This document shows, piece by piece, positions 5,070 to 64,000 of a DNA stretch of 64,000 nucleotides. This DNA comes from a virus. A model generated the notes under the pieces. The model saw only the letters and a list, made by a program, of their open reading frames with translations. It made no database searches and was not told the DNA's origin. The stretch spans positions 62,001 to 126,000 of the IMG/VR virus record IMGVR_UViG_3300031963_000003; one strand, written 5' to 3'. How positions within the stretch are numbered: the stretch's first letter is position 1; every line of letters begins with the position of its first letter. The position numbers and the translations under genes are program-made.

Positions 5070-5070
5070 T

Positions 5071-5118: not shown

Positions 5119-5196
5119 TATAATATAGTGTGACCTACGGAATTACCAAATATAAAAAAAATAAAATTATAAATTACCCAGTATATGCACCAGTAT

Positions 5197-5294
5197 TCTA
5201 GTTCTAGTTCTAGTTTATTTTTATCTAGTTTATTTCTTTATAGTTATTCTAGTTTCTTTAATCTAGTTCTTAATTTACTAGCATCTAGTACTAG
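5197..5294. repeat. CTAG-rich repeat cluster (TCTAGTTY iterons)
   Basis: Nine CTAG tetranucleotides start at 5198, 5204, 5210, 5225, 5249, 5263, 5278, 5285 and 5291. Six lie in the octamer TCTAGTTY (5197, 5203, 5209, 5224, 5248, 5262). CTAG places TAG stops on both strands, so this DNA is noncoding. CTAG is usually under-represented in bacterial and phage DNA, so the density is striking. The remainder of the 348-bp gap is AT-rich and holds no ORF. Confidence 0.75.
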
Positions 5295-5368
5295 TATGGA
5301 AAAAATACGAAATAATTTTCACAAAATCAAGTATTGAGAAGATTTTTTTTGTTTTTTCATATACAACA

Positions 5369-5376
5369 TATTTATA
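5369..5376 (+). promoter_or_regulatory. TATTTATA late-type motif upstream of the tail tube gene
   Basis: The motif ends 41 nt before the tube ATG, in the A/T-rich leader. It matches the octamer found upstream of several other structural genes here. Confidence 0.4.
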
Positions 5377-5417
5377 AGAAAGATTAAAAATAAAAAAATT
5401 AAAAAACAAATATTGAC

Positions 5418-38029: not shown

Positions 38030-38030
38030 T

Positions 38031-40030: not shown

Positions 40031-40036
40031 TTTTCA

Positions 40037-40044
40037 TATTTATT
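40037..40044 (+). promoter_or_regulatory. TATTTATT motif upstream of the 305-aa gene
   Basis: It lies in the 24-bp gap after the PKD-like gene and ends 10 nt before the ATG at 40055. Confidence 0.4.
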
Positions 40045-40054
40045 ATAAAAAAAC

Positions 40055-40972: not shown

Positions 40973-43900
40973 TGGCAAGGAGAAAAGTACCGAGTCAAGC
41001 GTCAAGCGGAGCGGAAACATTTAATGATTTCTTAGTTGGTAGACAGATAACTGATGGTTCATCTGCACTAACCAACACCGTATTTGCGCTTGATAAGTCT
41101 ATCCCTGACAAAGATTCTAAAAATTTTACGAGTAACCCATTCTCTCAATTTTTAACATTAGATACGTTAAAAGAGGTTGAGGGTATTCAAACAACATCAG
41201 CAACACCAAGAAAAAAGAGAACTGACGAAGTAAGGTTTAAGGGCAACAAAAAATATGCCGATAAATCTTTATTTGGTTCGTTAACAAGTAGAATTTTAGT
41301 TTCATTAACTAGAATTATAAACAAGTTTCCGGGTGGAATTTCAATCTTATCGGACAGTCCTATAGGTGTTTCTAATTACAGTGCTAGTGGAATAACATAT
41401 AACGATAGCACCAATACCACAACTTTTTACATCGAAAGAAGTAAAATATTCAATCCTTTTGATTTAGTTTTTGTTGAGCCTAATTCAGTAGTTAAACCAG
41501 AAACTGAAAACGAATTAAGAAATTTTTATTCGTCTTATACAAAATATGTTGTTGTTACAAATAACACACCATATCCAATTTTAGAATACAGCGAACCGAA
41601 TACAAACAATAGAATTTACTTAAAGGTATATGGACAACCATTTACTGGTTCAACATATTCAGAAAATTTATTGATAAGACCAAACGATGGTTTAGTTGAA
41701 GAATTTTTCGAAGGGTTAGACGATTTAGAGGAATCACTTTTAAATAGAGAAACAAATCCAATTTATACTTCATCATTTAAAGTACCGAGAGATGTTCAAG
41801 ACAATTCAAAAACATCTTTGGTTGATGTTGTAATAACTTGGCCAATATCTAATGATGGTTATAACATACAAATAACCGGTTTTGATTACGATTTATATGT
41901 TGGTAAATTAAAAGATATTGCTGATGAGATAGATGTGTATAAATCTAATCTAATGGTTAGATTTTTAGCCGCACCACAGTTATTTGAATTTGACACCGAA
42001 GATAAAAGAGCTGAAAGTGTATTTCAATTATATGGTCAAAGCTTTGATAGTGTAAAGAAATACATAGACAACATAGCTTATATGAGAAACGTAAGTTATG
42101 ATGGAATTAATAATTTACCTGATGTACTTTTAAAAAACTTAGCAGAAAATTTAGGTTTATCAACATTAAATTTATTCGATGAAAATAGTCTAAATGATGT
42201 TTTATATTCAAGATTACAATCAAATTATGACGGAGTATCAACCGGTACGAATTTAATTGAAGCTGAGTATGAGTTTTATCGAAGATTACTTATAAATCTT
42301 GCTCACATTTATAAATCAAAAGGAACAAAATCCTCTATTGATTTCTTTTTAAAATTTTTGGGGGCACCCGAGCCTTTGATTAGGATTGATGAATACATTT
42401 ATAAAGTAACGTCAATTCCATCTAGTTTTAATTTACAACAAGACATATACGATGCGATTCAAGGTAACAAAAGATATTCTTACGCCACCTTTGATAGTAC
42501 AGGTTTCACATATTCTAAAGTTTACTACTCAGCGTCAACAACATTTGACAGAGAGGGTTACCCTGTAGACGAAAAAACTGGACTACCAAGAAGAGCATAT
42601 AACGAAACTGAAAACATATTCTTTGGTAAAGGTTCAGGATGGTACGATATTACATTATCACACCGTACTCCACTCGTTTTAGACAGTAGTAACTCAATAC
42701 TAACGGGTAACACCAAAACAATTAAAACAAAGAATAAAAACTACACATACGGAGAAGAATACTTTGATTTATATAGAACATTACCAGGTTTAGATACCGG
42801 TTATGAATTGGTTTCCGCGGTCGATAATAAAGACGGAAAACCAATTGAGGATGATTATTTATTAATTTTAAATAGAAAAAACATTGGAATTTATATCTCA
42901 CCATCACGAGGTATAGATTATGATATCTTTAGACAAAGTAGAGAATTATTAATAAGTTTTGGTACAAATACTTTATTACCCCAAACAGGTAAAACTTTTG
43001 CTGAATTTTTAGACACCTTTATTCATGGACTTGTAACAAATTCTAACAAAATTCGTTACAAAAAAAATTATATTCAATTAGAAGATGTCTATAGAGATTA
43101 TATATCACAAACAACAGGTTTTACACCATATAATCAAATAAATGTTATTGAATTTGTTAATAAATTATCACCTTATTGGCCACAATTAGTTGAACAATTA
43201 GTACCATCAACCACTCAATGGACCGGCGGTAATTTAATAGAAAATAACGTGTTTGGTAGACCAAAATATCAATATAGATATGATTGTCAACCATTAGAAT
43301 TTATTGAGGAACTATACCCTGATTTTGAAAATGTAATTGAGGAAGATTTAGAAAATATTTTAGGTGAAGAAAATAATTTTAGAGGTTTAATAAACCTTAC
43401 AGGTGTTACTTACTATCCTGTAATTGAAATTGATGGAACAGTTTATGGTGGGGCCGACTACACGGGTCTAACATCCTCTATGTATGTGATTGTTAGTGGA
43501 ACAAGTAACACTTCAAACAGTGCAAAATTATTTGATGCACAACCATTTACAGGATGTACAAGTGGGGTCACCAGTGGTGATACGGTAAATCTTTCCTTAA
43601 TATGTGATTATAAAGATTATCTTGAACCTGATGTTACTAAAATTAAAGAACTATGGTTATCGGCGTTATCTGTATTGATTGATGACGTAACTATTACAAG
43701 AAATAGTGCAGGGTATGAACCCTATTCTGCTTTCACGGGAACCACAGGCCAAACATATTTTTCAGAAACAATACCATTAATAAAATACACAACATACACT
43801 GATGAAAATGGTGTTGAAAAAGTTAAGTTTTCATCCGTAAAATTAGGTCCAAACGAATGTTCAGTGGTCGACTATTTTGATTATCGATTTGATGCCGATT

Positions 43901-45216
43901 ACAAAATCACAAAAAATACAAATGGAATCAGTGTTAAAGTTTATACTGATAATACCGTTTATTGCGACTCAAACAGTGGATGTACATTAGTGAGTGATGT
44001 GTTTTTTGAAGTAATTGGATACAAAACAGGTATCCAACAAGGTTCAACATGGCCATTTAACATTTATGCTAATTGTGTAAGTGGAACAAATGAAAATGCG
44101 GATGTTTACATTCAAAAAGTTAGTGATTGTGTATATAAATTAACTGGTTTTTCAGAAAATGATGTAATAGATTTTAATATTGTAGATGCAGCAAATAAAG
44201 AAGTAAAATTCAAAATTGAAGGTCTACAACCCAAAATTGAACATGACCCATGTCCAACACCATCAGGAAAAAGTCACGTAGAATTATTTAGTATTGTTGG
44301 TTACCAAGGAACAATATCATCCCCAATTTCAGTTGTTTCAGGTGCAACATATTGTGACAATTACACAGGTTACACAATACAACCAAAAGTTGAATACAAA
44401 TCAAACTTTAACTATGGTTTAAAATGTGACTCTATAGTTTTAGTAGTTGATAGCGGATTAACCATTGACAACCAAACTACAGATGACAATATTGAAAGTT
44501 ATATTAGTGGTGGTACGATAAGTGGTAAAAGTGTTTGTGATTTAAATGTTGGGGAATATGTTTTATCTGCATCTTACAAACAATGTACAGAATATAGTCA
44601 CCAACAAATTGTGAATGGACCTGTATCAGGGTATTCATTTACGTACAACTATCAAAAACTTGAAATTACAGACATTGAATGTTTAGCATCAATCAAGAAA
44701 AGTATCATTACAGGATTAACCCAAAATAATACTTATGAAGTTTTTGAAGTTTTACCAACAACACAACTAAGAGTTTATACAAATAGAATCATTGAAAATT
44801 TTGGAACACCTACAAATAGTGTTTACTTTTTTGACGATAGGTTCCCAGAGGAATTACAAAAAAAACCAACAGATTTTATTGAACCTTGTTGTGACCATCC
44901 GAAAGAATTATATAACCATGGGGATTATTTAATAAACAAATATGGTAAAACCATAGAAGTAATTGATGTCGACTTAAATTATTGCGATACAGGATTATAC
45001 TTCAATCTAAATTTTGAATTAGACAATACACCACTAACTGATGAATTTGTTGTTGTTTTCAATGGAAATAACAGCGACCAAATTCTGATGAAACACAAAT
45101 ACGATAAACATCCAAATATTGGATTCAACCTCGGTCAATATTATATCGATGCCAACCATTGTCCTACAGAACCAACTAATGAGGAATTAAGTAGTTCCAT
45201 TTTTGATTGTCCATGA
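40972..45216 (+). CDS. Large baseplate-to-fibre structural protein with a tail-protein-I-like segment (1414 aa)
   Basis: No full-length family recognised. Residues about 436-463 read RLLINLAHIYKSKGTKSSID followed by FFLKFLGAPEP. This is very like the conserved helix of P2 gpI-type and related baseplate proteins (l..L...kGT......l...lG). The N-terminal 100 residues are Ser/Lys-rich and may be disordered. The second half is beta-rich with scattered cysteines and Gly/Thr stretches such as TSGVTSGDTVNLSL. Its stop overlaps a small ORF (ATGA), 90 nt before the giant fibre gene. A structural link between baseplate and fibres is the simplest reading. Confidence 0.6.
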   Translation: MARRKVPSQASSGAETFNDFLVGRQITDGSSALTNTVFALDKSIPDKDSKNFTSNPFSQFLTLDTLKEVEGIQTTSATPRKKRTDEVRFKGNKKYADKSLFGSLTSRILVSLTRIINKFPGGISILSDSPIGVSNYSASGITYNDSTNTTTFYIERSKIFNPFDLVFVEPNSVVKPETENELRNFYSSYTKYVVVTNNTPYPILEYSEPNTNNRIYLKVYGQPFTGSTYSENLLIRPNDGLVEEFFEGLDDLEESLLNRETNPIYTSSFKVPRDVQDNSKTSLVDVVITWPISNDGYNIQITGFDYDLYVGKLKDIADEIDVYKSNLMVRFLAAPQLFEFDTEDKRAESVFQLYGQSFDSVKKYIDNIAYMRNVSYDGINNLPDVLLKNLAENLGLSTLNLFDENSLNDVLYSRLQSNYDGVSTGTNLIEAEYEFYRRLLINLAHIYKSKGTKSSIDFFLKFLGAPEPLIRIDEYIYKVTSIPSSFNLQQDIYDAIQGNKRYSYATFDSTGFTYSKVYYSASTTFDREGYPVDEKTGLPRRAYNETENIFFGKGSGWYDITLSHRTPLVLDSSNSILTGNTKTIKTKNKNYTYGEEYFDLYRTLPGLDTGYELVSAVDNKDGKPIEDDYLLILNRKNIGIYISPSRGIDYDIFRQSRELLISFGTNTLLPQTGKTFAEFLDTFIHGLVTNSNKIRYKKNYIQLEDVYRDYISQTTGFTPYNQINVIEFVNKLSPYWPQLVEQLVPSTTQWTGGNLIENNVFGRPKYQYRYDCQPLEFIEELYPDFENVIEEDLENILGEENNFRGLINLTGVTYYPVIEIDGTVYGGADYTGLTSSMYVIVSGTSNTSNSAKLFDAQPFTGCTSGVTSGDTVNLSLICDYKDYLEPDVTKIKELWLSALSVLIDDVTITRNSAGYEPYSAFTGTTGQTYFSETIPLIKYTTYTDENGVEKVKFSSVKLGPNECSVVDYFDYRFDADYKITKNTNGISVKVYTDNTVYCDSNSGCTLVSDVFFEVIGYKTGIQQGSTWPFNIYANCVSGTNENADVYIQKVSDCVYKLTGFSENDVIDFNIVDAANKEVKFKIEGLQPKIEHDPCPTPSGKSHVELFSIVGYQGTISSPISVVSGATYCDNYTGYTIQPKVEYKSNFNYGLKCDSIVLVVDSGLTIDNQTTDDNIESYISGGTISGKSVCDLNVGEYVLSASYKQCTEYSHQQIVNGPVSGYSFTYNYQKLEITDIECLASIKKSIITGLTQNNTYEVFEVLPTTQLRVYTNRIIENFGTPTNSVYFFDDRFPEELQKKPTDFIEPCCDHPKELYNHGDYLINKYGKTIEVIDVDLNYCDTGLYFNLNFELDNTPLTDEFVVVFNGNNSDQILMKHKYDKHPNIGFNLGQYYIDANHCPTEPTNEELSSSIFDCP

Positions 45217-45335
45217 TAAAAACTGTAAAAATAGACGTTGACAATACCCGAATAAATGAGTATATTTTTATAATAAAAATAGATATAGATAAGACTGTAG
45301 ATTTAAATGGCATTAATAAAAATAAACACAGGTAA
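45213..45335 (+). CDS. Possible 40-aa leader peptide/small ORF before the giant gene
   Basis: The ATG overlaps the stop of the 1414-aa gene as ATGA. The frame encodes MIKTVKIDVDNTRINEYIFI and goes on to end inside the start of the giant gene, overlapping it by 29 nt. The stop/start overlap and the Ile/Asp/Lys-rich, strand-like peptide make translation possible. It could couple or attenuate translation of the giant gene, or be chance. Confidence 0.25.
   Translation: MIKTVKIDVDNTRINEYIFIIKIDIDKTVDLNGINKNKHR
45263..45281. promoter_or_regulatory. AT-rich palindrome upstream of the giant gene
   Basis: TATTTTTAT (45263-45271) and ATAAAAATA (45273-45281) are perfect 9-bp inverted arms around one base, ending 25 nt before the ATG. 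The left arm is a one-base-longer variant of the TATTTATW motif. It may be a promoter/operator for the fibre gene. Confidence 0.35.
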
Positions 45336-48300
45336 TTTTGATGGTGAAATTGGTGTTATCACATTTTATCCTTGTACTGGCGGTACCTTGAATTTAGGTA
45401 CTGTCGTGATGCCATATTATTACGACACAAACTACTACTTAGGTACTTACTCAGTTTATTTTCCGTCACTTGATAAAACTTGTGTGGCTGAGATTCCTTG
45501 CCCTACACCTTCACCTACACCTTCACCAACACTTACACCATCATTAACACCAACACCAACAACCTTTACTTCAAATACCCCAACCCCAACAGTTACCAAA
45601 ACCCCTACTGTTACACCTACGGTTACAAAAACACCTACTGTTACCCCAACCAATACTATCACTCCAACAAATACTCCTACGAATACCGTAACTCCGACTA
45701 ATACTCCAACAAACGAGCCTACAGTTACCCCAACTGAAACTCCTACAGTTACTCCAACTAACACAGTAACTCCAACCAATACCCCAACAAATACCCCAAC
45801 GGTTACCCCAACTGAAACTCCTACAGTTACCCCAACTAACACAGTAACTCCAACCGAATCACCAGCCAACACACCTACTGTAACTCCTACGAATACAGTT
45901 ACACCAACCGAGACACCAACTGTTACTCCGACCGAAACTCCAACTGTAACCCCAACAAATACGGTAACCCCAACCAATACACCAACTGAAACACCTACCA
46001 ACACCCCAACAAATACAGTTACCCCTACCGAAACTCCAACTGTAACTCCAACAAATACGGTAACCCCTACCGAAACACCTACCAATACACCAACTCATAC
46101 AGTAACCCCTACCGAAACACCAACCAATACCCCAACTAATACACCGACTGAAACACCCACTAACACCCCAACAAATACTGTTACCCCAACTAATACACCA
46201 ACCGAAACACCAACCGAAACACCAACCAATACCCCAACCAACACCGTAACTCCAACTGTTACCCCAACTGTTACCCCAACTGTAACTCCAACCAATACTG
46301 TTACCCCAACTAATACACCAACCGAAACACCAACCGAAACACCAACCAATACTCCAACCAACACCGTAACCCTAACCGTTACCCCTACCGAAACACCAAC
46401 CAACACCCCAACTAATACTCCGACTAACACAGTAACACCAACACTGAGTCCAACCGTTACCCCTACCGAAACACCTACCAATACCCCAACCAACACCATA
46501 ACACCAACTAACACTCCGACTAATACCTCAACTGTAACTCCAACCAATACTGTAACTCCAACCAATACACCCACTGTAACACAAACTGAAACACCTACCC
46601 TAACACCAACAAATACTGCAACCGTTACACCAACTCAAACCCCAACCAATACTCCTACCAATACTGTTACACCAACGGTTACCCCAACTAACACTCCAAC
46701 TGTAACTCCAACAAATACGGTAGCTCCAACTAATACACCTACAAATACACCAACCGAAACACCAACAAATACCCCCACCAACACACCAACAAATACTCCC
46801 ACAGAAACACCAACACTTACACCAACCAACACCGTAACCCCTACCAATACAGTCACACCAACCAATACTGTTACAGTGACTCCAACAGAAACTGTGACAC
46901 CAACTAATACACCTACAAACACCCCAACTAATACACCAACAAATACGGTTACACCTACGAATACTCCAACCAACACAGTAACTCCAACAAATACTCCAAC
47001 TAACACTCCAACATTAAGTCCTACCAATACCGTAACTCCTACCAACACCCCAACAAACACACCGACGAATACAGTAACTCCAACTCAGACACCTACAAAT
47101 ACTCCTACAAATACCGTTACACCAACCAATACCCCAACCAATACCCCAACCAACACCGTAACTCCAACAAACACTCCTACCAACACTCCTACAAACACTC
47201 CCACAAATACCGTAACTCCAACCAACACCGTAACTCCGACTAATACACCTACAAACACACCAACGAATACTGTGACTCCTACATTGAGTCCTACGGTAAC
47301 ACCAACTAACACCGTAACACCAACCAATACTCCAACCAATACACCTACCAATACTGTGACTCCTACATTGAGTCCTACGGTAACACCAACTAACACCGTA
47401 ACACCAACCAATACTCCAACTAACACGCCGACCAACACTCCTACTAACACTGTAACACCAACATTGAGTCCAACAGTGACTCCAACCAATACAGTTACCC
47501 CCACAAACACCCCGACAAATACTGTAACTCCAACCAATACTGTAACTCCAACAAATACACCAAGTGTAACTGTGACGGTTTCACCAACACCAGCACCTTC
47601 TTGTGACATTGATTATACAATGTTACCCTCACCAACTCCAACGAGCACCCCAACACCCACCAATACTCCAACGGTAACACCAACCAACACTGTAACACCA
47701 TCCGTTACATTAACCAATACTCCCACAAACACACCAACCAATACAGTAACTCCTACTAACACCCCAACTAATACACCAACAAAAACTGTTACACCAACTT
47801 TAACTCCAACAAATACTCCAACTAATACTGTAACACCAACCAATACACCAACAAACACTCCTACCAATACAGTTACTCCTACATTGAGTCCAACAGTTAC
47901 TCCTACCAATACTGTTACCCCAACCAATACTCCTACCAATACCCCAACCAATACAGTTACACCTACATTGACTCCAACAGCGACCCCAACCAACACCGTA
48001 ACCCCTACAAATACCCCAACATTAAGCCCCACCAATACTCCAACCAACACCGTAACCCCTACAAATACTGTAACACCAACGAATACCCCAACCAACACTC
48101 CGACAAACACCCCAACAAACACTGTAACACCAACCAACACTCCAACAAACACTGTAACACCGACCAATACTCCAACAAATACCCCTACTAATACTGCTAC
48201 TCCTACAAATACACCAACTAATACTCCTACCAATACGGTAACCCCTACAAATACACCAACTAACACTCCTACCAATACGGTATCCCCAACACTGACACCT

Positions 48301-51300
48301 ACTAACACCCCTACGAACACCGTAACACCAACAAACACACCAACTAACACACCAACTAATACTGTAACACCAACTAACACTCCTACCAACACCCCAACCA
48401 ACACAGTTACTCCTACCAATACGCCAACTAATACTCCTACCAATACGGTAACGCCAACATTGAGTCCAACAGTGACTCCAACCAATACCGTTACACCAAC
48501 TCAAACCCCTACAAATACCCCAACTAACACCGTAACACCAACCAATACACCTACGAATACCCCCACTAATACTCCAACAAATACCGTAACCCCAACAAAC
48601 ACGCCTACGAATACACCAACAGTAACCCCTACCAATACCGTAACCCCAACAAATACACCGACGGTAACTCCGACCAATACAGTCACACCAACTAATACAC
48701 CAACCAACACTCCTACCAATACGGCTACCAATACAGTTACTCCTACCAATACACCCACAAATACACCAACAAATACGGTTACACCAACTAACACTCCTAC
48801 TAATACTCCAACAAATACCGTAACACCGACACTGACACCTACAAATACCCCGACAAACACTCCAACCAATACAGTTACTCCAACCAATACTGTAACTCCT
48901 ACCAACACCCCTACCAACACCCCAACAAATACTCCAACAAATACAGTCACCCCAACTAATACTCCAACCAATACTGTCACCCCTACCAATACTCCTACAA
49001 ACACCCCCACCAATACTGTCACCCCTACCAATACTCCTACCAATACTCCTACAAATACAGTAACTCCAACTAACACCCCAACAAATACTCCAACAAATAC
49101 AGTCACCCCAACCAATACTCCTACCAATACGCCCACCAATACTGTCACCCCTACCAATACTCCTACCAATACTTCTACAAATACAGTAACTCCAACTAAT
49201 ACTCCTACCAATACGCCTACTAATACTGTAACTCCAACCAACACCCCAACTGTAACTCCTACCAATACTGTTACACCAACAAACACTCCTACTAACACAC
49301 CAACCAATACTGTTACACCAACAAACACTCCTACTAACACACCAACCAATACGGTAACTCCTACCAACACCCCAACTAACACACCAACCAATACGGTAAC
49401 TCCTACCAACACCCCAACTAACACCCCAACAAATACTGTTACACCAACAAATACTCCCACCAATACCCCAACAAACACGGTGACTCCAACAAACACTCCT
49501 ACTAACACCCCAACAAATACAGTAACACCAACATTGAGTCCTACAGTAACTCCTACGAACACAGTAACTCCTACAAATACTCCCACAAACACTCCGACCA
49601 ACACCGTTACACCAACAAATACCCCAACCAATACCCCGACAAATACAGTAACCCCAACTAACACACCTACCAACACTCCAACTAATACAGTAACTCCCAC
49701 ATTAAGTCCAACTGTGACTCCTACTAATACTGTGACTCCTACAAACACTCCTACCAACACACCAACAAATACAGTTACACCTACATTGAGTCCAACAGTG
49801 ACTCCAACCAGCACCGTAACCCCAACTAATACGCCAACATTAAGTCCTACCAATACTCCAACCAACACTGTTACTCCTACAAATACCGTTACACCAACCA
49901 ATACACCTACCAATACCCCAACAAACACCGTAACCCCAACACTAACCCCAACTAACACTCCAACCAATACTCCTACAAATACGGTATCTCCAACCAACAC
50001 CGTAACCCCAACAAATACACCAACTAACACTCCAACCAATACTCCCACCAACACTGTTACTCCAACCAACACCCCGACCAACACTCCGACTAATACAGTA
50101 ACTCCTACCAATACCCCAACAAATACCCCAACAAATACAGTTACACCTACATTGAGTCCAACGGTGACTCCTACTAATACTGTAACTCCTACCAACACTC
50201 CGACCAACACACCAACCAATACTGTTACACCTACATTGAGTCCAACGGTGACTCCTACTAATACTGTTACACCCACTAACACGCCAACTAACACTCCTAC
50301 TAACACTGTAACACCAACTCAGACTCCCACGAACACGCCTACAAATACAGTAACACCTACTAACACACCTACTAATACACCAACAAATACGGTAACACCA
50401 ACCAACACCCCTACGAACACGCCGACTAACACCCCAACCAATACAGTCACACCAACTAATACCGTAACTCCAACAAATACGCCAACCAATACTCCTACCA
50501 ATACGCCAACCAATACCGTAACACCAACTCAGACACCGACAAATACCCCAACAAAAACTGTTACACCAACATTGAGTCCGACTGTGACACCAACAAATAC
50601 TGTTACTCCAACCAATACCCCCACCAATACTCCAACTAACACAGTAACCCCAACCAATACTCCAACTGTAACACCTACGAATACTGTTACACCTACAAAT
50701 ACACCGACGAATACACCAACCAATACGGTAACTCCAACCAACACCCCAACCAATACCCCAACTAGTACTGTTACACCAACATTAAGCCCGACACTAACAC
50801 CAACCAATACAGTAACTCCAACATTGAGTCCGACTGTAACTCCAACAAGAACGGTTACACCTACTTTAACACCAACCAATACACCGACAAATACGGTAAC
50901 CCCTACAAATACTCCCACCAACACCCCAACAAACACTCCAACCAATACAGTCACCCCAACAAACACCGTAACACCAACCAACACCCCCACAAACACTCCA
51001 ACCAATACTCCAACAAACACCGTAACACCAACCAACACACCAACCAAGACTGTAACTCCAACCAATACCCCAACCAATACTCCAACTAATACAGTAACCC
51101 CAACTAATACACCAACCAATACTCCAACGAACACCGTAACTCCAACCAACACCCCAACCAACACTGTAACTCCAACAAATACACCTACAGTTACCCCGAC
51201 TAACACAGTAACACCTACACTGAGTCCGACTGTAACCCCTACGAATACAGTTACACCAACTCAGACACCTACAAATACTCCAACTAACACCGTAACTCCT

Positions 51301-54300
51301 ACCAACACACCAACTAACACACCAACTAACACTGTTACACCCACAAATACACCAACCAATACAGTTACTCCTACCAATACACCTACTAACACTCCAACTA
51401 ACACAGTAACCCCTACCAATACCCCTACGAACACTCCTACTAATACAGTAACTCCTACAAACACCGTAACACCAACCAACACACCAACCAATACTCCAAC
51501 CAACACTGTCACCCCTACATTGAGTCCTACGGTAACTCCTACGAACACAGTTACCCCTACTAACACACCGACTAAGACCGTGACTCCCACATTGAGTCCG
51601 ACTGTGACTCCTACAAATACTGTTACACCAACTCAAACCCCTACGAATACACCAACTAATACAGTTACACCAACTAATACACCTACAAACACCCCAACAA
51701 ATACAGTTACACCTACAAATACCCCAACTAACACTCCAACCAATACAGTAACCCCTACACTGAGTCCAACCGTAACACCAACTAATACTGTCACACCCAC
51801 GAATACACCAACCAATACCCCTACGAATACTGTAACCCCTACCAACACCCCTACTAATACTCCTACAAATACGGTTACACCAACTAACACTCCAACAAGA
51901 ACGGTTACACCTACTTTAACACCAACCAATACACCGACAAATACGGTAACCCCTACAAATACTCCCACCAATACCCCAACAAACACGGTGACTCCTACAT
52001 TAACACCAACTGTAACTCCTACAAATACCGTAACACCAACCAATACTCCTACAAATACTCCTACTAACACAGTAACACCTACCAATACCCCTACAAACAC
52101 ACCAACAAACACTGTAACTCCAACTAACACCCCTACTAATACTCCGACGAATACGGTAACTCCAACCAATACCCCAACAAACACACCTACCAACACCGTA
52201 ACACCTACAAATACTCCTACTAAAACTGTGACTCCCACATTGAGTCCAACAGTTACACCTACCAACACCGTAACACCTACAAATACTCCCACAAATACCC
52301 CTACTAACACAGTAACACCAACAAATACACCAACCAACACTCCAACTAATACCGTTACCCCAACTAACACACCTACAAATACACCAACAAATACTGTGAC
52401 TCCTACATTGAGTCCAACAGTTACACCTACCAACACCGTAACACCTACAAATACCCCTACCAACACCCCAACAAATACAGTAACACCTACATTGAGTCCG
52501 ACTGTGACTCCAACTAACACCGTTACGCCAACTAACACACCTACCAACACTCCAACTAACACCGTAACCCCTACCAGCACCCCCACAAGAACCGTTACAC
52601 CTACATTAACTCCAACCAATACCCCTACTAATACCGTAACCCCAACAAATACCCCAACCAATACCCCTACTAATACCGTAACCCCAACAAATACCCCAAC
52701 AAACACTCCAACTAATACCGTAACCCCAACAAATACCCCAACAAACACTCCAACTAATACCGTAACCCCTACCAACACCCCCACAAGAACCGTTACACCT
52801 ACATTAACTCCAACCAACACACCAACTAATACTGTAACCCCAACCAACACTCCTACAAACACTCCAACGAATACAGTTACACCAACCAATACACCAACTA
52901 ACACCCCAACCAACACTGTAACTCCAACATTGAGCCCTACAGTGACTCCCACTAATACAGTTACACCAACTAACACACCAACCAATACCCCAACCAACAC
53001 CGTAACTCCAACAAACACCCCTACTAAAACTGTAACTCCCACATTGAGCCCTACGGTAACCCCAACAAACACTGTTACTCCAACCAACACCCCAACTAAT
53101 ACTCCAACTAATACTGTTACTCCAACCAACACCCCAACCAACACCCCAACTAATACTGTTACACCGACCAACACACCAACGAATACTATAACTCCTACTA
53201 ATACTCCTACCAAAACTGTTACACCAACTCTAACCCCAACGAATACACCGACCAATACTCCTACAAACACAGTAACCCCAACCAATACCGTAACACCAAC
53301 TAACACTCCAACCAACACTGTAACTCCAACTAATACACCAACCAACACCCCAACTAATACTCCGACAAACACTGTTACGCCAACCAATACACCAACAAAA
53401 ACTGTCACACCAACTTTAACCCCAACCAACACCGTAACACCAACCAATACCCCGACTAATACACCTACAAATACTGTTACTCCAACTAATACACCTACAA
53501 ACACTCCAACCAACACCGTAACCCCAACCAATACACCAACTAATACGGTGACTCCCACATTGAGTCCTACGGTAACTCCTACAAATACTGTAACCCCTAC
53601 TAATACTCCTACCAAAACTGTTACACCAACTCTAACCCCAACGAATACTCCTACCAATACTGTAACCCCTACCAATACTCCTACCAATACTGTAACCCCT
53701 ACCAATACTCCTACCAATACTCCAACAAATACTGTTACCCCAACTCAGACACCTACTAACACTCCAACGAATACAGTCACACCAACCAACACACCAACTA
53801 ATACTGTAACTCCTACATTGAGTCCTACGGTAACTCCGACCAATACGGTAACCCCAACAAACACACCAACTAACACACCAACTAATACTGTAACGCCAAC
53901 TAATACACCAACAAAAACTGTTACACCAACTTTAACTCCAACCAATACCCCAACTAATACTGTAACACCTACCAATACACCAACAAACACTGTTACGCCA
54001 ACTTTAACTCCAACCAATACCCCGACCAATACCCCAACAAATACCGTTACTCCAACCAACACAGTTACCCCGACCAATACCCCAACTAAGACAGTCACCC
54101 CAACTCAGACTCCCACCAATACTCCAACCAATACCCCCACAAACACTGTAACTCCAACAAACACTGTTACGCCAACAAATACTCCAACTAATACGGTAAC
54201 ACCGACTAACACTGTAACGCCGACCAATACCGTAACCCCCACTAACACTGTAACTCCAACGAATACAGTTACACCGACCAATACTCCAACAAGAACTGTT

Positions 54301-57300
54301 ACGCCTACCTTAACCCCTACAAATACTCCAACAAATACGGTAACTCCGACCAACACACCAACTAACACACCAACTAACACAGTTACCCCGACTAACACCC
54401 CAACCAATACGGTAACCCCTACTAACACACCTACTAATACACCAACCAAGACTGTTACTCCTACATTAACTCCTACCGTTACTCCAACGAATACAGTTAC
54501 ACCGACCAATACCCCGACTAATACTAATACCCCTACTAATACACCTACAAACACTCCTACTAACACAGTAACCCCAACCAATACACCAACAAAAACTGTC
54601 ACACCAACTTTAACCCCAACAAATACACCGACCAACACACCAACTAATACAGTGACTCCAACCAATACTGTTACCCCAACAAACACTCCAACCAAGACTG
54701 TTACTCCTACATTAACACCAACCAACACTCCGACCAATACGGTAACCCCTACAAATACCCCAACTAACACCCCAACAAACACTGTTACGCCAACTAATAC
54801 ACCAACCAAGACTGTTACTCCTACATTAACTCCAACCAATACCCCTACTAATACCGTAACCCCAACAAATACCCCAACAAACACTCCAACCAATACTGTA
54901 ACACCAACGAATACTGTTACCCCAACATTGAGTCCTACTAATACCCCAACTAATACTGTAACACCCACCAACACACCCACCAACACACCAACAAATACTG
55001 TTACACCAACCAATACACCAACAAAAACCGTAACACCTACATTAACACCAACAAACACTCCTACAAACACCCCAACAAATACCGTTACTCCAACCAACAC
55101 CGTAACCCCAACTAACACACCAACTAATACGGTGACTCCCACCAATACCGTTACACCTACAAACACTGTTACACCTACTAATACTGTTACACCTACTAAT
55201 ACTGTAACACCAACTAATACACCAACCAAGACTGTAACACCTACATTAACTCCAACCAATACTCCAACAAACACCGTAACACCAACTCAGACACCGACTA
55301 ATACTCCTACAAATACCGTAACTCCTACCAATACACCAACAAAAACTGTCACACCAACTTTAACTCCAACAAATACCCCAACCAATACTGTTACACCAAC
55401 TCAAACCCCTACGAATACACCAACTAATACAGTTACACCAACTAACACAGTCACCCCGACCAACACACCTACCAATACCCCAACCAATACTGTTACACCT
55501 ACCTTAACTCCTACAAATACTCCTACAAATACAGTAACCCCAACCAATACACCAACAAAAACCGTAACACCTACATTAACACCAACAAACACTCCTACAA
55601 ACACTCCCACGAATTCCGTTACTCCTACTAATACTGTTACCCCCACTAACACCCCAACTAACACAGTAACGCCGACTAATACTGTTACTCCAACCAATAC
55701 CGTAACTCCTACAAATACGGTAACCCCAACCAATACTGTAACGCCAACTAATACCCCAACCAAGACAGTTACACCAACTCAGACACCTACTAATACACCA
55801 ACCAACACTGTAACACCAACTAACACACCTACCAACACTCCAACTAACACCGTAACTCCTACTAATACACCAACAAAAACTGTTACACCAACTCTAACAC
55901 CAACAAATACCCCTACGAACACTGTAACTCCAACCAATACACCAACAAAAACTGTTACACCAACTTTAACTCCGACCAACACGGTAACCCCAACCAATAC
56001 TCCTACTAATACTCCTACTAATACAGTAACCCCCACCAATACTCCGACCAATACGGTGACTCCCACATTGAGTCCTACAGTTACCCCTACGAACACCGTT
56101 ACACCAACAAATACCCCAACCAAGACTGTAACTCCTACATTAACTCCTACAAATACCCCTACTAATACTGTAACCCCTACCAATACTCCAACTAATACAC
56201 CTACTAAAACTGTCACCCCTACAGTTACTCCTACTAATACAGTTACCCCAACCAACACTCCCACAAACACTCCTACAAACACTGTAACCCCTACATTGAG
56301 TCCTACAGTTACCCCTACGAACACCGTTACACCAACAAATACCCCAACCAATACTCCGACAAATACAGTTACACCGACCAATACGCCCACAAATACTCCT
56401 ACTAATACTGTTACACCCACTAACACCCCAACAAATACTCCAACAAATACAGTTACACCGACCAATACACCCACAAATACACCAACAAATACAGTTACAC
56501 CGACCAACACACCAACAAAAACTGTAACACCAACTTTAACTCCAACCAATACACCCACAAATACACCAACAAATACGGTTACACCAACAAATACAGTAAC
56601 CCCAACTAATACACCGACTAAGACAGTCACCCCAACCAATACCCCAACAAATACTCCAACCAACACACCAACTAACACGGTTACCCCAACCAATACTGTT
56701 ACACCAACAAACACACCCACTAATACACCAACCAAGACTGTAACTCCTACATTGAGTCCTACAGTTACTCCTACTAATACAGTAACACCCACCAACACAC
56801 CAACTAACACGGTTACCCCAACCAATACACCAACCAAGACTGTTACACCTACATTAACACCTACTAATACTCCGACCAATACTGTAACCCCTACATTGAG
56901 TCCTACAGTTACCCCTACGAACACCGTTACACCAACAAATACTCCTACAAACACCCCAACCAAGACTGTTACACCTACATTAACACCTACTAATACTGTT
57001 ACACCTACATTAACACCAACCAATACTCCAACGAACACTCCTACCAATACTCCTACAAACACGGTAACACCAACAAACACTGTTACACCAACAAATACTC
57101 CTACAAACACTCCGACCAAGACTGTTACACCTACATTAACACCTACTAATACTCCTACGAATACTGTTACCCCAACAAATACTCCAACAAGAACTGTTAC
57201 TCCTACATTAACACCGACCAATACTCCTACGAATACTGTTACCCCAACAAATACTCCAACAAATACACCTACTAATACAGTTACACCAACTAACACACCT

Positions 57301-60300
57301 ACTAATACAGTTACACCAACCAACACCCCAACCAAGACTGTTACACCTACCTTAACTCCTACAAACACCCCAACCAATACTCCAACAAACACTGTTACGC
57401 CTACTAATACCCCGACTAATACGGTAACTCCTACAAATACCCCAACCAATACCCCAACAAATACCGTTACTCCAACTAATACACCAACAAAAACTGTTAC
57501 ACCAACTCTAACCCCAACAAATACTCCAACCAACACACCAACTAATACGGTTACCCCAACAAATACTGTTACCCCCACAAATACTCCAACCAAGACTGTC
57601 ACCCCTACCAATACTCCTACAAACACCCCAACCAATACGGTAACTCCTACAAATACCCCAACCAATACTCCAACAAACACTGTTACGCCTACTAATACTC
57701 CGACTAATACAGTTACACCAACTCAGACACCTACTAATACACCAACAAAGACAGTTACACCAACTTTAACACCGACCAATACAGTTACACCTACATTGAG
57801 TCCTACAAATACTCCTACCAATACAGTAACACCAACAAATACACCAACTAACACCCCAACAAATACCGTTACACCAACGAATACACCAACTAACACTCCG
57901 ACTAACACTGTAACCCCAACTAATACCGTAACCCCAACAAGAACACCAGCAGCTACTGTTAGTCCAACAAATACTCCAACAAATACTCCTACGAATACTG
58001 TTACACCAACCAATACACCTACCAATACACCTACTAATACTGTTACACCAACCAACACACCAACTAAAACGGTTACACCTACGTTCACACCAACCAATAC
58101 AGTAACTCCGACTAACACACCCACAAACACCCCAACCAATACCGTTACACCAACCAATACACCTACTAATACTCCAACCAATACTGTTACACCAACAAAT
58201 ACTCCTACTAATACTGTTACACCAACAAGAACACCAGCAGCTACTGTTAGTCCAACAAATACTCCAACAAATACTCCTACGAATACTGTTACACCAACCA
58301 ATACACCTACCAATACACCTACTAATACTGTTACACCTACTAACACTCCAACCAAAACTGTAACACCAACCAATACTCCTACTAATACTGTTACACCCAC
58401 AAACACCCCAACAAACACTCCAACAAATACAGTCACACCAACTAATACACCTACAAATACACCTACTAACACAGTCACACCCACCAACACACCGACCAAT
58501 ACAGTGACTCCAACAAGAACTCCGGCCGCCACTGTTAGTCCTACCCTTACACCCACAAACACCCCAACCAATACCGTTACACCAACCAATACACCAACAA
58601 GAACCGTCACACCAACTTTTACACCTACTAACACTCCAACGAATACAGTCACACCAACAAATACTCCAACCAATACGCCGACTAATACTGTTACACCAAC
58701 CAATACCCCAACCAATACTGTTACTCCAACAAGAACTCCGGCAGCCACTGTTAGTCCTACCCTTACACCAACCAATACCCCAACCAATACTCCAACAAAT
58801 ACAGTAACACCAACCAACACTGTCACACCGACCAATACTCCTACTAATACACCAACAAAAACTGTTACACCAACTTTTACACCAACCAATACTCCAACCA
58901 ATACTGTAACACCAACCAATACTCCTACAAACACCCCAACAAACACCGTTACTCCTACCAATACTCCTACCAATACTGTAACTCCTACGAGAACACCAGC
59001 GGCTACTGTTAGTCCAACATTAACACCGACTAACACACCAACAAACACACCTACTAATACTGTTACTCCAACAAATACAGTTACACCGACCAACACCCCT
59101 ACTAACACCCCAACCAACACTGTTACTCCAACCAACACCCCAACTAATACTCCAACAAATACGGTAACTCCAACCAATACCCCTACTAATACCGTAACCC
59201 CGACAAGAACACCAGCTGCCACTGTTAGTCCAACCTTAACTCCAACTAATACTCCAACCAACACTCCAACTAATACAGTCACCCCTACGAATACAGTTAC
59301 ACCTACCAATACACCAACAAGAACAGTTACACCAACTTTAACTCCAACTAATACACCAACCAACACTGTAACACCAACTAACACCCCAACTAATACTCCA
59401 ACAAATACGGTAACTCCAACAAATACCCCAACAAATACTGTTACACCAACAAGAACACCAGCGGCTACTGTTAGTCCAACATTAACACCAACAAATACAC
59501 CTACCAATACCCCAACGAACACAGTAACCCCCACAAATACTGTTACCCCAACCAATACCCCAACAAGAACTCCAGCAGCCACTGTTAGTCCTACGGTAAC
59601 TCCAACAAATACCCCAACAAATACTGTTACACCAACAAGAACACCGGCTGCCACAGTTAGTCCAACCGTAACACCAACTAACACTCCAACAAATACTGTT
59701 ACACCAACATTGACACCAACCAAAACAGTAACCCCAACGGCTAGTCCTCAGTATGTTGCTGCTAGATTTGAATCATGTTGTCCTGGTGACACCAATGTTT
59801 ATTATGGTCAAGTACCATTAGGTACATTGTTAGGTACGGTATTTTATTTACAAGACATTCAGTTATGTGCAACGTATGTGCAACAGGTAGGACCTGGAGG
59901 TACGATTTACACTACTGTTCAGACAAGTTGTGCACAATGTTTAGGAGAAACTCTAAATTTTTGTCCATCACCAACCCCGACACCAACACCAACCAGAACT
60001 GTTACACCTACGAATACGGTAACCCCTACCAATACACCAACAAGAACAGTTACACCAACTCTCACACCAACCAATACCCCAACAAATACTGTTACTCCAA
60101 CAAGAACTCCAGCCGCCACTGTTAGCCCTACGGTAACCCCTACCAATACACCAACAAGAACAGTTACACCAACTTTAACCCCGACTAACACCCCAACCAA
60201 TAGTGTTACTCCTACGAGAACACCATCCGTAACCCCTACCAATACACCAACAAAAACAGTTACACCAACTTTAACTCCTACATTAACACCAACAAGCACA

Positions 60301-61725
60301 GTAACACCATCACCATCCTTACAGGTTGGTTATGTTTATTTATTACCATGTTGTGATGGTGGTATTTTAGGTAATACTATTTCTTATTTAAGTATAACAA
60401 CTAATTTGACCTATGTTCAAAGCGGTATTTCACAAGGTCAAACTATTGTTATAAATGGATGTTGTTATTTTGTTGAAGGTTATAGTCAAACCTACTCACC
60501 ACCAAACTTTAGTGGGGTTGACGGGTATTATCCACCATCATCATTTAGTGTTGATACATGTGAAACATGTATTGGAGCTAACCCATGCGCCACTTGGATT
60601 TTCGATTTACAAAGATGTGGATGTTGTGGTACAACAGGACAATATACAATTCAATTTGGTTGTCAAAATGGATTTAACCCAAATCTTTTAGTAAACCGTT
60701 ATATATCAATTAATGGTTGTTGTTATTTTGTTACAAACTCAGTCGGACCAGGAGTACCTGGTTCCGCAATCACTGCGTATGGTACATACAATACATGTAC
60801 TGAATGTGAAACTTATCACCCTTGTCCTTCACCAACCCCAACAGTTACACCAACAGTTACACCAACTTTAACCCCAACAAAAACACCGACAAATACACCA
60901 ACAAGGACAGTTACTCCAACTTTAACACCAACCAATACTCCTACAAATACACCAACCAAGACTGTAACTCCAACCTTTACCCCTACAAATACACCAACCA
61001 AGACTGTAACTCCAACCTTTACCCCTACAAATACTCCAACCAAGACTGTAACTCCAACCTTTACCCCTACAAATACTCCAACAAGGACAGTTACTCCAAC
61101 TTTAACACCAACCAATACTCCTACAAATACACCAACCAAGACTGTAACTCCAACAAACACTCCAACAAACACTCCAACACCATCTCCGGTTTCAAATCCG
61201 TCATCAACCCCAACCCCAACTCCAACTCCGACCCCAACCCCAACTCCACCATGTGTTTGTGAGTCATATATTATTACAGGATTAGGACCTGGTAATATAG
61301 TTAACTATACCACTTGTTGCGGTGGAGGAACACCCACAGAAATACTTGACCCAAATGTGTACCCAGCAAGTGGTACAATTGAGATATGTTCATGTAGTAT
61401 TCCAAGTGTATTAGGTCCTTATGGTGGGGAGATAACGTATGATGGTGCTTGTGGTGATTGTTTGTGTACAGACTTTTTTGTTGATATTAATGATTTAACA
61501 GCCTCAGATGATAATCAAGTATACTTTGCATACCAATGTTGTGATGGTACATTCACAACACAAGGTTATAACGCCCCTGGTAATTATAGCGTTTGTCTTA
61601 TGAGAGTGACAAATGTGTTTATATTGTTTAGAGGAAACTTCGTACCACCAATATATACTTCGCAATATACATACGGTACTGGTTGTGGTGATTATTGTAA
61701 CACATTTTGTGGAGAAGCATGTTAA
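45307..61725 (+). CDS. Giant Thr/Pro/Asn-repeat fibre protein with Cys-rich modules (5472 aa)
   Basis: One uninterrupted reading frame of 16.4 kb. The N-terminal ~65 residues form a small Cys-containing head ([14 protein letters not shown], later CVAEIPCP). Then come about 4750 residues of repeats built on TPTN and a 14-residue super-unit, [14 protein letters not shown], broken only by a short [12 protein letters not shown] segment near residue 765. From about residue 4815 Cys-rich modules alternate with Pro/Thr linkers: one at ~4815-4880, a double one at ~5005-5174 with NGCCYFV and CETC/CECET motifs, and a C-terminal one at ~5315-5472 ending CNTFCGEAC. Such Thr/Pro tracts are known as stiff, extended, often glycosylated stalks. 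The position after the baseplate genes and before another propeller protein points to a very long tail fibre or whisker. Function is inferred; there is no enzyme motif. Confidence 0.85.
50839..51971 (+). repeat. 83-bp perfect direct repeat, copies 1050 bp apart
   Basis: Bases 50839-50921 equal 51889-51971. The spacing, 1050 bp, is exactly 25 super-units of 42 bp. Perfect identity over 83 bp contrasts with the scrambled third positions around it and suggests a recent duplication or gene conversion. Confidence 0.8.
57934..58337 (+). repeat. 116-bp perfect direct repeat containing the RTPAATVSP module
   Basis: Bases 57934-58049 equal 58222-58337, 288 bp apart (24 units of 12 bp). The copies encode the first two [13 protein letters not shown] modules, indicating recent in-frame duplication. 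Confidence 0.8.
60901..61154 (+). repeat. 74-bp direct repeat flanking three 42-bp tandem copies
   Basis: Bases 60901-60974 equal 61081-61154. Between them three near-identical 42-bp units (60961, 61003, 61045) encode [14 protein letters not shown] or a one-residue variant. This is the most recent-looking expansion in the gene and lies in the linker before the last Cys-rich module. Confidence 0.85.
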
Positions 61726-61769: not shown

Positions 61770-64000
61770 ATGCCAGCACAAATAATAACATTTCAAAATT
61801 GTTTAGACCCAGCGTCATACTATGATTTTGTCGTCGATGACAGTTTAGTATTATCGGGTGACACGATTTTTGCTGATTACCAATGTTGGTCTTCAACAGG
61901 AAATGTCGGAGGTGGACCGTCAGGTACGGTTATTTTTAGTGGTTATACAACCTGTGAACAATGTAACGACGATTTTAATGGGTGGCAATTTGAACATTGC
62001 CAAATACCAGGGGCATTTGTTTACTTTGGTTTAAAAAATTCAGAAGTTAATCAGTATTTCCAAAGTACAGGTGCAACAATTTCTTATGATGGTACATGTT
62101 ACAACTATACAGGAGTTTATGAACAAGGCACTGGTAGCACCACTTACAATTATACTGTTGCACAATTAATTTCTGAAAATGCTCTTTTTACAAATTGTAT
62201 TGACTGTTTAACACCACCAAGTCCAACTCCTACCCCTACTCCAACACCCACACCAACTTTATGTTACTCAGGTATAACCGATTCACCAAATTGGTATTAT
62301 ACGGACTGTTGTGGTGTATATCATAGTGGTTCATTTTCACCAACATATGTTTGTTACGACCCGAGTTACCCATATGCAGGGATATCTTTCAATGGTTTCT
62401 GTACTGTAGTTTGTCCGAGTGTGACCCCAACTCCAACACCCACATTAACACAAACTCCTTCCGAAACTCCTTCCGAAACCCCAACCCCAACAAATACTGT
62501 AACTCCAACAAAAACTCCAAGTCTAACTCCGACACCTTCGGTTACACCAACAAATACACCCACAAATACACCGTCAAGTACGTTAGGTTCGACACCTTCG
62601 GTTACACCAACAAATACACCCACAAATACCCCTTCATTAACACCTTCGGTAACTGTTAGTGTAACACCCACAGTAACCCCATCACCTTCACTAGTACCTA
62701 CAGGATGTACTCAATATACATTCTCATTACACCCAATTTATTTTTTAACGCAAGCCGGACCTTATAATATTTCGGGAACAACAACAGGAGGAACTATAGT
62801 ATTAATTGCAACTGGTGTGACAACATCTCAATTATTATCTGGGTATACCGCACTTGTGTGTTATTCAATAACAACATTTACAGTTCAAAGTACTGGTACG
62901 TGTACTAATTCTGTGAATTTTACATTACCTGTACCTATTGTATCTCCAACCCCGACCCCAACAAAAACCCCAACACCAAGTCCATCCGGTAATCCAGTTG
63001 CGACCCCAAGTGTAACACCTACTAATACCGTAACCCCGACCCTGACCCCAACACCATCAGGTGGTTGTAGTGATTCAGTTAGAAATACTCTTGCCGCAAC
63101 GAATTCATATTCTGCCGTTGGTAGACAAGGTATGGTTTATTCATCATCAAATAACAAAGCATACGTTCTAAACGCATCAAGTGTTGTACAATCTTTTGTC
63201 CCAAATTCAACAAGTTTAACAAATGAATTTACATGGTCAGGAAGTAGTTTATTATTAGGATATAACTCAACTAACAACAAATTATACAGTTGGGAATCAT
63301 CATTTCCTGTTAAAATGTTAATAAGAAATTTAAACACAAACACAACATCGTCAATATCAATTTCGGGAATAACATCAGGTTTAGGAAAAATTGAATATAA
63401 TTCTGTTTTAAATAAAATTTATGCATTTAGTCAAACAGGTGGAAATTTTTCAGTTTCACAAATTAGTGTCATAGATGGTTCAACAGATACTTTTACAAAC
63501 CAAATTACAGGTATAACTTTATCAAACCCTGAAGCGACTGTTTACAATCCTAATAATAATAAATTATATTTCGCTCAGAGTGGTAGAATATATTCTTGTT
63601 CTGGTAATACTATTTCGTTAGATGGTACATCACTACCAATCACCTCAGCAAGTTTAATTGCTTTGGATGTGACGAACAATATTATTTATTTAGTTAGTGC
63701 GTCTACGGTATACAAAATAGATGTTGCAACAAACACCACACTTACTTTAAATTCAATATCGGGAGCAACTTGGATTTTTGGCTCAACAAGGTCTATGATA
63801 TATAATCCTGATAACGGTAAATTATATATTAGCAGATATTCAACATTGTCAGATGGATTCTTAGGTGTTCTAGACCCGACAACAGGTATATTTAGTGAAA
63901 TTATTGGTGACGGTATTTCTAAACCTTTGTATGTACCGACAAATACAATATATGGTATAAATGATAATGCTCTATACGAAATTTGTGGTTCATCCTTGGT
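61770..64000 (+). CDS. Fibre-like protein: Cys-rich modules, Pro/Thr linkers and beta-propeller (3' end missing)
   Basis: The frame is open from ATG 61770 to the window end (at least 743 aa). Order: a Cys-rich domain (residues ~1-148, with CEQCNDDF and CIDCLTPPSPTPT), a short PT linker, a second Cys-rich module (~165-215, YYTDCCGVYHSGSF), a PT linker (~217-310), a beta-sandwich (~311-390), a third PT linker, then from ~431 repeats such as VYNPNNNKLYFAQSG, MIYNPDNGKLYISR and SVIDGSTDTFTNQITG. These repeats look like a YVTN/NHL-type beta-propeller. The Cys-rich modules resemble those ending the giant upstream gene, and the linker-plus-propeller plan matches the gene at the left edge. I infer a receptor-binding or accessory fibre. 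Two identical linker segments of about 40 bp (near 62531 and 62592) show local duplication. Confidence 0.75.
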   Translation, partial: MPAQIITFQNCLDPASYYDFVVDDSLVLSGDTIFADYQCWSSTGNVGGGPSGTVIFSGYTTCEQCNDDFNGWQFEHCQIPGAFVYFGLKNSEVNQYFQSTGATISYDGTCYNYTGVYEQGTGSTTYNYTVAQLISENALFTNCIDCLTPPSPTPTPTPTPTPTLCYSGITDSPNWYYTDCCGVYHSGSFSPTYVCYDPSYPYAGISFNGFCTVVCPSVTPTPTPTLTQTPSETPSETPTPTNTVTPTKTPSLTPTPSVTPTNTPTNTPSSTLGSTPSVTPTNTPTNTPSLTPSVTVSVTPTVTPSPSLVPTGCTQYTFSLHPIYFLTQAGPYNISGTTTGGTIVLIATGVTTSQLLSGYTALVCYSITTFTVQSTGTCTNSVNFTLPVPIVSPTPTPTKTPTPSPSGNPVATPSVTPTNTVTPTLTPTPSGGCSDSVRNTLAATNSYSAVGRQGMVYSSSNNKAYVLNASSVVQSFVPNSTSLTNEFTWSGSSLLLGYNSTNNKLYSWESSFPVKMLIRNLNTNTTSSISISGITSGLGKIEYNSVLNKIYAFSQTGGNFSVSQISVIDGSTDTFTNQITGITLSNPEATVYNPNNNKLYFAQSGRIYSCSGNTISLDGTSLPITSASLIALDVTNNIIYLVSASTVYKIDVATNTTLTLNSISGATWIFGSTRSMIYNPDNGKLYISRYSTLSDGFLGVLDPTTGIFSEIIGDGISKPLYVPTNTIYGINDNALYEICGSSL

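Follow-up and report, generated by a model that had tools for sequence, protein, structure and literature searches.

A 16.4-kb gene beside phage baseplate genes probably encodes a giant receptor-binding tail arm

Introduction

What use could a phage have for a single gene of more than 16 kb, most of which encodes threonine alternating with residues such as proline, asparagine and valine? The question is raised by a 64,000-nucleotide stretch of DNA (the window) from an environmental metagenome, covering positions 62001–126000 of IMG/VR virus record IMGVR_UViG_3300031963_000003 (G000; 233,563 bases). An earlier note, made from the letters alone, had claimed one gene of about 16.4 kb, and this was borne out: a single uninterrupted frame runs on the plus strand from an ATG at 45307 to a stop at 61725 and comprises 5,472 codons (16,419 bp, 7% of the record). 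The product has a computed mass of 564 kDa and contains 2,471 Thr, 1,095 Pro and 792 Asn. A head of 66 amino acids (aa) precedes a Thr/Pro/Asn stalk, measured at 4,749 aa where the note had put it at about 4750, and Cys-rich modules with Thr/Pro linkers continue to residue 5472. As the note had described, both ends are capped by Cys-containing segments, with Cys at positions 23, 59 and 65 of the head and 38 Cys across 4824–5472; a lone Cys lies in the stalk, at position 766.

Gene order and the architecture of relatives make it likely, in our judgement, that the gene encodes a receptor-binding arm of a contractile tail, that is, a baseplate adhesin whose spacer is extreme and whose distal tip is a Cys module. 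The protein would be part of the virion and oriented with its head docked on the baseplate, probably on or beside a 1,414-aa protein encoded upstream. The stalk would act as a long, Pro-rich, non-globular spacer that lets the tip reach through the surface layer of the host, and the C-terminal Cys-rich beta modules would form the tip, which would attach to the host surface. Spacer turnover and tip exchange at a hypervariable cassette would diversify the arm, the head being retained.

The gene lies in a cassette of the baseplate region

The window encodes a tail sheath protein (2214–5069, plus strand; phrog_23, E 1.3e-59) and a gp6-like baseplate wedge subunit (30260–32092, plus strand; phrog_6, E 1.7e-22) with 26% identity over 99% of the query to the wedge of the cultured Flavobacterium phage vB_FspM_immuto (immuto; MW353176). 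These genes bear out the phage origin that the note had assumed and place the virus among the contractile-tailed (myovirus-type) Caudoviricetes. The genes upstream of the giant gene include those for the sheath, UvsX-like, DnaB-like, NrdA and gp6-like proteins, followed by conserved genes up to that of the 1,414-aa protein (40972–45216, plus strand), which we propose to be structural. Downstream, four cassette genes extend to G000:130547, at least three of them with Thr/Pro linkers, and are followed by conserved genes for 716- and 202-aa proteins. The first cassette gene (61770–64000, plus strand) overruns the window end and encodes 854 aa in the record, with Cys modules and Thr/Pro linkers.

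Relatives were collected by scanning with the 1,414-aa protein, which gave 74 loci, and with the head, which gave 28 (13 of the window's species and 15 other contigs, some of them conspecific). Both conserved sides are present in L132, L133 and L120 at 46–81% identity; the wedge gene was seen in L073, L082, L100 and L132, the other loci beginning past it. From the 1,414-aa homology to the 716-aa gene the distance is about 23 kb in the window's record and about 1.3 kb in L132. Hypervariable genes thus sit beside conserved baseplate genes, the arrangement of an adhesin locus.

The strongest evidence that the arm would work on the tail is that the two parts appear joined in relatives. In 13 of 15 relatives, hand-picked from the 74 loci (some mutually close, three reaching a contig end), one polypeptide carries the 1,414-aa protein and at least 100 further residues of Thr/Pro sequence, Cys modules or both. 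L073 resembles the window in that the protein ends at the joint (...SIFDCP), and L086 and L089 carry an extended 1,414-aa protein plus a separate head-bearing gene. Synteny and fusion together support the tail-associated stalk of the earlier note.

Two further features of the region were recorded. The 90-bp gap before the gene (45217–45306), whose identity is 90–94% in L073, L076 and L075, 86% in L078 and 68% in L082, contains a sigma-70-like promoter pattern, TTGACA-17-TATATT (45238–45266, plus strand). This is a consensus match only (11 of 12 positions), and a weak one: two sites occurred in 501 bases against 3.7 expected in shuffles. At the other end of the window, the open reading frame (ORF) at 1–1662, which adjoins the sheath gene, encodes a DUF5122 beta-propeller (275 bits), and its full-record version has a short Thr/Pro run.

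The reading frame is intact in most full-length copies

A protein so repetitive might be an assembly artefact or a junk repeat. We fetched the gene region from 13 records of the window's species. The head was present at 100% in 10 and the last 426 bp in all 13; 10 records contained both gene ends, and the other three were partial, exact matches. Six of the 10 full-span copies, the window's own and five others, were identical over 16,419 bp. The remaining four measured 15,989–16,166 bp and had broken frames, with zero mismatches within aligned blocks. All four break at gene positions 12,607–12,993 (window 57,913–58,299), around the longest exact repeat of the gene, whose 116-bp copies lie at window 57,934–58,049 and 58,222–58,337 (gene 12,627 and 12,915). 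L059 has two additional breaks near this repeat, and contigs L204, L014 and L016 of the same species start or end there. Because the breaks carry no mismatches and fall at the longest exact repeat, the four broken frames are probably assembly errors.

Of the 15 loci from other species that carry the head, 10 also have a contig end inside the gene, which, with the four broken frames, is what an artefact would predict. Against it stand the six identical records, four other relatives open for 2,737–4,989 codons, and the constraint at protein level described below. We therefore rejected artefact as the principal explanation and consider it, or a junk repeat, extremely improbable. The earlier view of a designed protein rather than junk holds up, given relatives with the same head and a repeat face that is held while its codons have diversified. 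The true length could nevertheless be greater, since a perfect repeat exceeding the read length could collapse alike in all records. Short-read assemblies break at such loci, so that counts of comparable genes are probably too low.

No point differences were found across 16 contigs from 15 IMG dataset numbers, so that the contigs sample one near-clonal population and not independent ones. One further contig of the species, L072 (3300008452_007696; L072:14336–22225), lacks 42 and 258 bp in two in-frame deletions that begin near window position 52,658, distant from 60-bp repeats. It is otherwise identical to the window, and its frame is open for 2,630 codons to the contig end inside the stalk. 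Either a real difference in stalk length or misassembly close to the contig end could account for the deletions.

Relatives combine a conserved head with exchangeable stalks

The earlier note had proposed a search for homologues with the same end modules, and head-sharing relatives were indeed found in IMG/VR, several with Cys modules. Complete relatives encode 4,989 (G013), 2,940 (G016) and 2,737 aa (G015); a fourth, G014, is open for 4,673 codons, its contig stopping just past the first CC of the Cys modules. Head identity in relatives is 79–98% while the stalk repeat type differs, and 22 of 67 columns are invariant in an alignment of 15 heads (window 45307–45504, plus strand), the proposed anchor. 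The window stalk is of TPTN type. Repeats are TPTNTLTPTNT in G013 and L174, TITPTTSVTPT in G014 and TPTVTPSTSVTP in G015 and L163, and G016, L149, L080 and L166 have one common type that differs from the window's. A lone-Cys insert (CDIDY, containing Cys 766; 47593–47640, plus strand), a feature beyond those listed in the earlier note, divides the window stalk into parts A (45505–47592) and B (47641–59751). Its motif also interrupts the stalks of G013, G014, G015 and L170 and is absent from that of G016.

Judged by its flank, G016 is the nearest relative (1,414-aa protein 96.5% identical in aa; DNA 90–94%), yet its stalk has zero 25-mers in common with the window's, while L080 and L166 share 530. 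For most of the 1,414-aa gene, DNA identity to L076 is 81–82%, but it reaches 91% in the last 545 bp of that gene and in the head. The flank/stalk mismatch, the shared 25-mers and this jump in identity indicate mosaic exchange at the locus. The head also recurs in the same record, on a 308-aa paralogue (G000:51552–52478) that joins a head module (51% identity) through a short Thr/Pro linker to a weak F5/8 type C (discoidin-like) match (E 3e-5; 24.5 bits, under the cut-off of 28.2). Both this recurrence and the retention of the head on differing stalks would fit an anchor and speak for the receptor-binding arm.

The stalk keeps a hydroxyl face and a charge polarity

If the stalk sequence turns over, what is kept? 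In the window stalk Ser/Thr status agrees at positions i and i+2 in 99.0% of positions, against 50% in shuffled sequence. The five long stalks score 86–99% (shuffled ~50%), the lower values coming from extra Ser/Thr on the face opposite the Thr face (T-face). The window T-face is 96.8% Thr and 2.4% Ser (99.2% of 2,375 positions); on the other face Pro makes up 42%, Asn 31% and Val 18%, alongside other residues. Strict alternation persists for up to 3,440 aa without a break, in part B. The T-face of G016 is 45% Ser, so the hydroxyl is kept there as well.

The stalk uses the Thr codons ACA, ACT and ACC freely and ACG at ~6%, and the commonest 14-mer peptide, present in 152 copies, has 147 DNA versions. 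This diversity of codons for the same peptide points to a T-face held at the protein level while synonymous positions diversified. A (Thr–Pro)n ancestor would start out alternating, and selection is therefore argued here from the diversification of one face and not the other. The 147 DNA versions also reject recent microsatellite duplication in its simple form. Exact 31-mers number 1,818 against 58 in codon-shuffled sequence, and an excess was found in all five stalks. From the diverged 14-mer versions and the excess of exact 31-mers we conclude that the stalks combine old divergence with newer duplication. A further idea, codon avoidance of short-range repeats, was dropped as Thr–Thr pairs dominate, giving ~0.70 differences in a hand calculation from codon counts.

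The second feature is charge. The window stalk has 21 Glu, every one of them in its first tenth, within part A, and Lys/Arg become commoner towards the C-terminal end of part B. All five long homologues show this acid-before-basic polarity (Mann–Whitney test, Glu before Lys/Arg, P=2.5e-5 to 1.9e-10; these values, like those that follow, assume independent residues, an assumption that repeats break). Part of this agreement could stem from common descent. We surveyed 46 representatives of viral ORFs with at least 400 alternating aa (imperfectly dereplicated, with some same-species fragments) and scored the 33 with at least three acidic and three basic residues. Eight were acid-first at P≤1e-5 (the five family members, L043, L263 and L271) and six more weakly so at P<0.05 (L268, L216, L275, L234, L195 and one L051 ORF). 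Four were reversed at P<0.05: L241 (8e-5), L080, which is a truncated family member covering only the first 797 aa, one L191 ORF and L036. As 15 of 33 showed neither polarity and four the reverse, a universal charge gradient among viral Thr/Pro stalks was dropped.

These data bear on the possibility that length itself is neutral, the spacer swelling and shrinking by slippage and recombination so that only its extended, unfolded nature matters. The spread of complete homologues from 2,737 to 5,472 aa, with one of 255 aa, would suit such drift, as would the scarcity of shared 25-mers between most stalk pairs, the recent duplication implied by the exact 31-mers and the two in-frame deletions of L072 within the species. 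However, three species have stalks of ~4,480–4,760 residues (G013 and G014 among them being close relatives), polarity is kept in five of five, and six records, albeit near-clonal, share one exact length. We regard neutral length as rather unlikely. The two kept rules allow selection for physical character to be told apart from selection for sequence, and a hydroxyl at every second residue together with an acid-to-basic polarity provides design rules of an extended protein that can be tested directly.

Head and tip modules in family and structure searches

The C-terminal part begins with Cys module 1 (59752–59964, plus strand; CC...C...CxxC...C, Cys 4824–4886), whose Cys spacing is similar in G016, G015 and G013. 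Cys modules 2 (60328–60825; Cys 5015–5173) are flanked by Thr/Pro linkers, and the C-terminal Cys-rich beta domain or domains (61252–61722) are the proposed distal binding tip. The C-terminal Cys-rich region has 31–39% identity to five homologues. Its AF2 model is beta-rich (mean pLDDT 76.7; 10-residue blocks of 83–97 over model residues 81–150). The model of the head is all-beta at low confidence (pLDDT 65) and had no BFVD match at E≤0.001. A PDB sequence search gave no match for the C-terminus and one chance-level match for the head (E 0.58).

Several results weigh against a tail arm. Neither the head nor the last 574 aa has a Pfam family. PHROGs returned nothing for the head; the single family matched by the last 574 aa was phrog_15511 (E 1.6e-18), which is of unknown function and aligned over a stretch consisting in part of Thr/Pro linker. 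The C-terminal model had no PDB match at Foldseek E≤0.001, and VIA-align gave a best Z of 3.9, with 98 of 996 chains at Z≥2 and none at Z≥5; no binding fold is therefore clearly recognisable at the tip. The six genes at 32145–45216 have no PHROGs family, and the 1,414-aa protein has no assigned function and no PDB sequence match. In L093 that protein gains only 35 residues. L171 holds a complete head-bearing ORF (L171:10001) of only 255 aa, without the Cys tip, which may be a real loss or an assembly break. In immuto, LR756508 and Mel-JY01 similarity is limited to the wedge, one small neighbouring gene and a brief segment of the 716-aa protein, and the stretches read contain no Thr/Pro run of at least 24 aa.

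The arm is, moreover, known here at the level of genes, and a rival reading is a protein that the infected cell secretes or carries on its surface, where it might, for instance, prevent superinfection or attach to neighbouring cells. Cys-rich modules would suit the oxidising environment outside. Such a protein would, however, be expected neither from the baseplate synteny and fusion nor from the head, which begins MALIKIN with no signal peptide apparent by eye, and we consider this very improbable.

Reach depends on stiffness, and glycosylation is plausible

How far could the receptor-binding arm extend? The computed contour length is 1.47–1.6 μm. At assumed persistence lengths of 0.5–1, 4 and 15 nm, the root-mean-square end-to-end distance becomes 38–57, ~110 and ~210–220 nm. 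The reach of 1.5 μm given in the earlier note is thus a contour length only, and a flexible chain would span about 40–110 nm. Since the span depends on stiffness, only a stiffened arm, for example a heavily glycosylated one, would greatly outreach the tail. The tether, brush and antenna roles suggested by the note may each apply and are not told apart by the evidence.

Outside the window, at G000:153071–165180, 15 adjacent minus-strand ORFs form a sugar-gene block. Seven of the 14 ORFs scanned exceeded curated Pfam cut-offs: an NAD-epimerase, a UDP-GlcNAc 2-epimerase, two FkbM methyltransferases and three GT2-type glycosyltransferases. With this block in the record, glycosylation of the stalk by its products is plausible. 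A reading compatible with the tail arm is that phage glycosyltransferases O-glycosylate the regularly spaced Thr/Ser to give a stiff, hydrated, mucin-like bristle, which would shield the virion or bind in biofilm or mucilage. The near-invariant T-face opposite a variable one, the Ser-rich yet hydroxyl-bearing T-face of G016, and the sugar-gene block, one GT2 of which is 94% identical in G016, are consistent with such a brush. Glycans on mycobacteriophage virions have been reported (Freeman et al. 2023, as given in a passage of PMC10568470). On the other side, a (Thr–Pro)n ancestor would also leave the alternation, and the glycosyltransferases may target DNA, lipopolysaccharide or other proteins. 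Seven of 13 records, including four of the window's species, contain the 485-aa glycosyltransferase, which was not found in G016; the other GT2 is present in 5 of 13, although these records are fragments. The general O-glycosylation motif of Bacteroidota, D-S/T-A/I/L/M/T/V, requires Asp, of which the 4,749-aa stalk holds two, both in the CDIDY insert. We propose the brush tentatively, at less than even chances.

The most specific combination would be a charge-graded, O-glycosylated giant tail arm, its hydroxyl face decorated by phage glycosyltransferases and stiffened towards the micrometre scale, acidic at the virion and basic at the tip, the tip end being drawn to an anionic cell surface and the base end repelled. 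We judge this joint reading improbable; if true, motif turnover at constant hydroxyl spacing and charge polarity would define a new physical class of viral attachment organelle.

Host and comparison with known systems

The wedge protein matches eight INPHARED records, namely four Flavobacterium phages, two Streptomyces phages, one phage deposited with a Microcystis host and one uncultured phage. Several proteins of the record begin with signal-like sequences ending in FSQ, KAQ or NAQ, a style typical of Bacteroidota, and a host from this phylum is plausible. The record also carries a cluster of 22 tRNA genes (G000:550–4831), including, among many others, Thr(TGT), Pro(TGG), Asn(GTT) and Val(TAC), which correspond to the main stalk residues. 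TPTN-type linkers resemble those of bacterial surface proteins, mainly of Chloroflexota: a 12-residue control pattern matched at least 116 stretches. An exact 15-residue stalk pattern had no match in genome_contigs and at least 115 stretches in viral_contigs, many from the window's own species. Host mimicry by TPTN motifs is unsupported, the genome matches to the control pattern being mainly from Chloroflexota.

The long tail fibre of T4 is built from gp34–gp37, and T4 fibres are folded, beta-structured trimers. The present stalk is instead a Pro-rich alternating repeat, which makes a trimeric beta-structured shaft unlikely. No T4-type fibre (gp34/gp37) sequence domain was recognised by Pfam or PHROGs in the head or last 574 aa, and tblastn against INPHARED gave no match to the head (E 0.01), the C-terminal 520 aa (E 0.001) or the 716- and 1,414-aa proteins (E 1e-5). 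Among the literature matches listed, judged from the listings and with preprints outside the scope, no such stalk was recognisably described; a term search of PMC7162821 gave no match. The earlier statement that no T4 counterpart is known therefore stands, within these searches, for the head and C-terminus, but not for the locus, whose order matches that of Flavobacterium phage tail fibre and spike genes. In immuto, seven other genes separate the wedge gene from the annotated tail fibre and tail spikes that come after it, and the likeness extends to a conserved anchor beside a variable distal side and to mosaic exchange. It is one of gene order only, the wedge and one small neighbour being detectably similar. 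By these comparisons the protein would work like a tail fibre or adhesin, although no test made places it in a named fibre family.

The closest likeness in composition is to Thr/Pro-linker and Cys-module proteins of uncultured IMG/VR phages (L043, 3,795 aa; L271, 1,757 aa; L041, 2,673 aa), which use the same building blocks but have shorter linkers, broken up among Cys domains. Within the locus itself, phrog_15511 matches three such ORFs: the giant gene, the 854-aa neighbour and the ORF at 1–1662. The 3,795-aa protein of L024/L043 (contigs of 131,650 and 173,656 bases) has 74 Cys and 1,784 alternating Thr/Ser-X residues, the largest alternating content outside the family among the fetched loci; its stalk has no Glu beyond the first fifth, and Lys/Arg rise along it. 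If present on the virion, the giant protein would be an extreme single-chain tail adhesin, by which a phage lengthens its reach while keeping its anchor. Its building blocks already occur in other uncultured phages, and among the fetched loci this gene is their extreme form.

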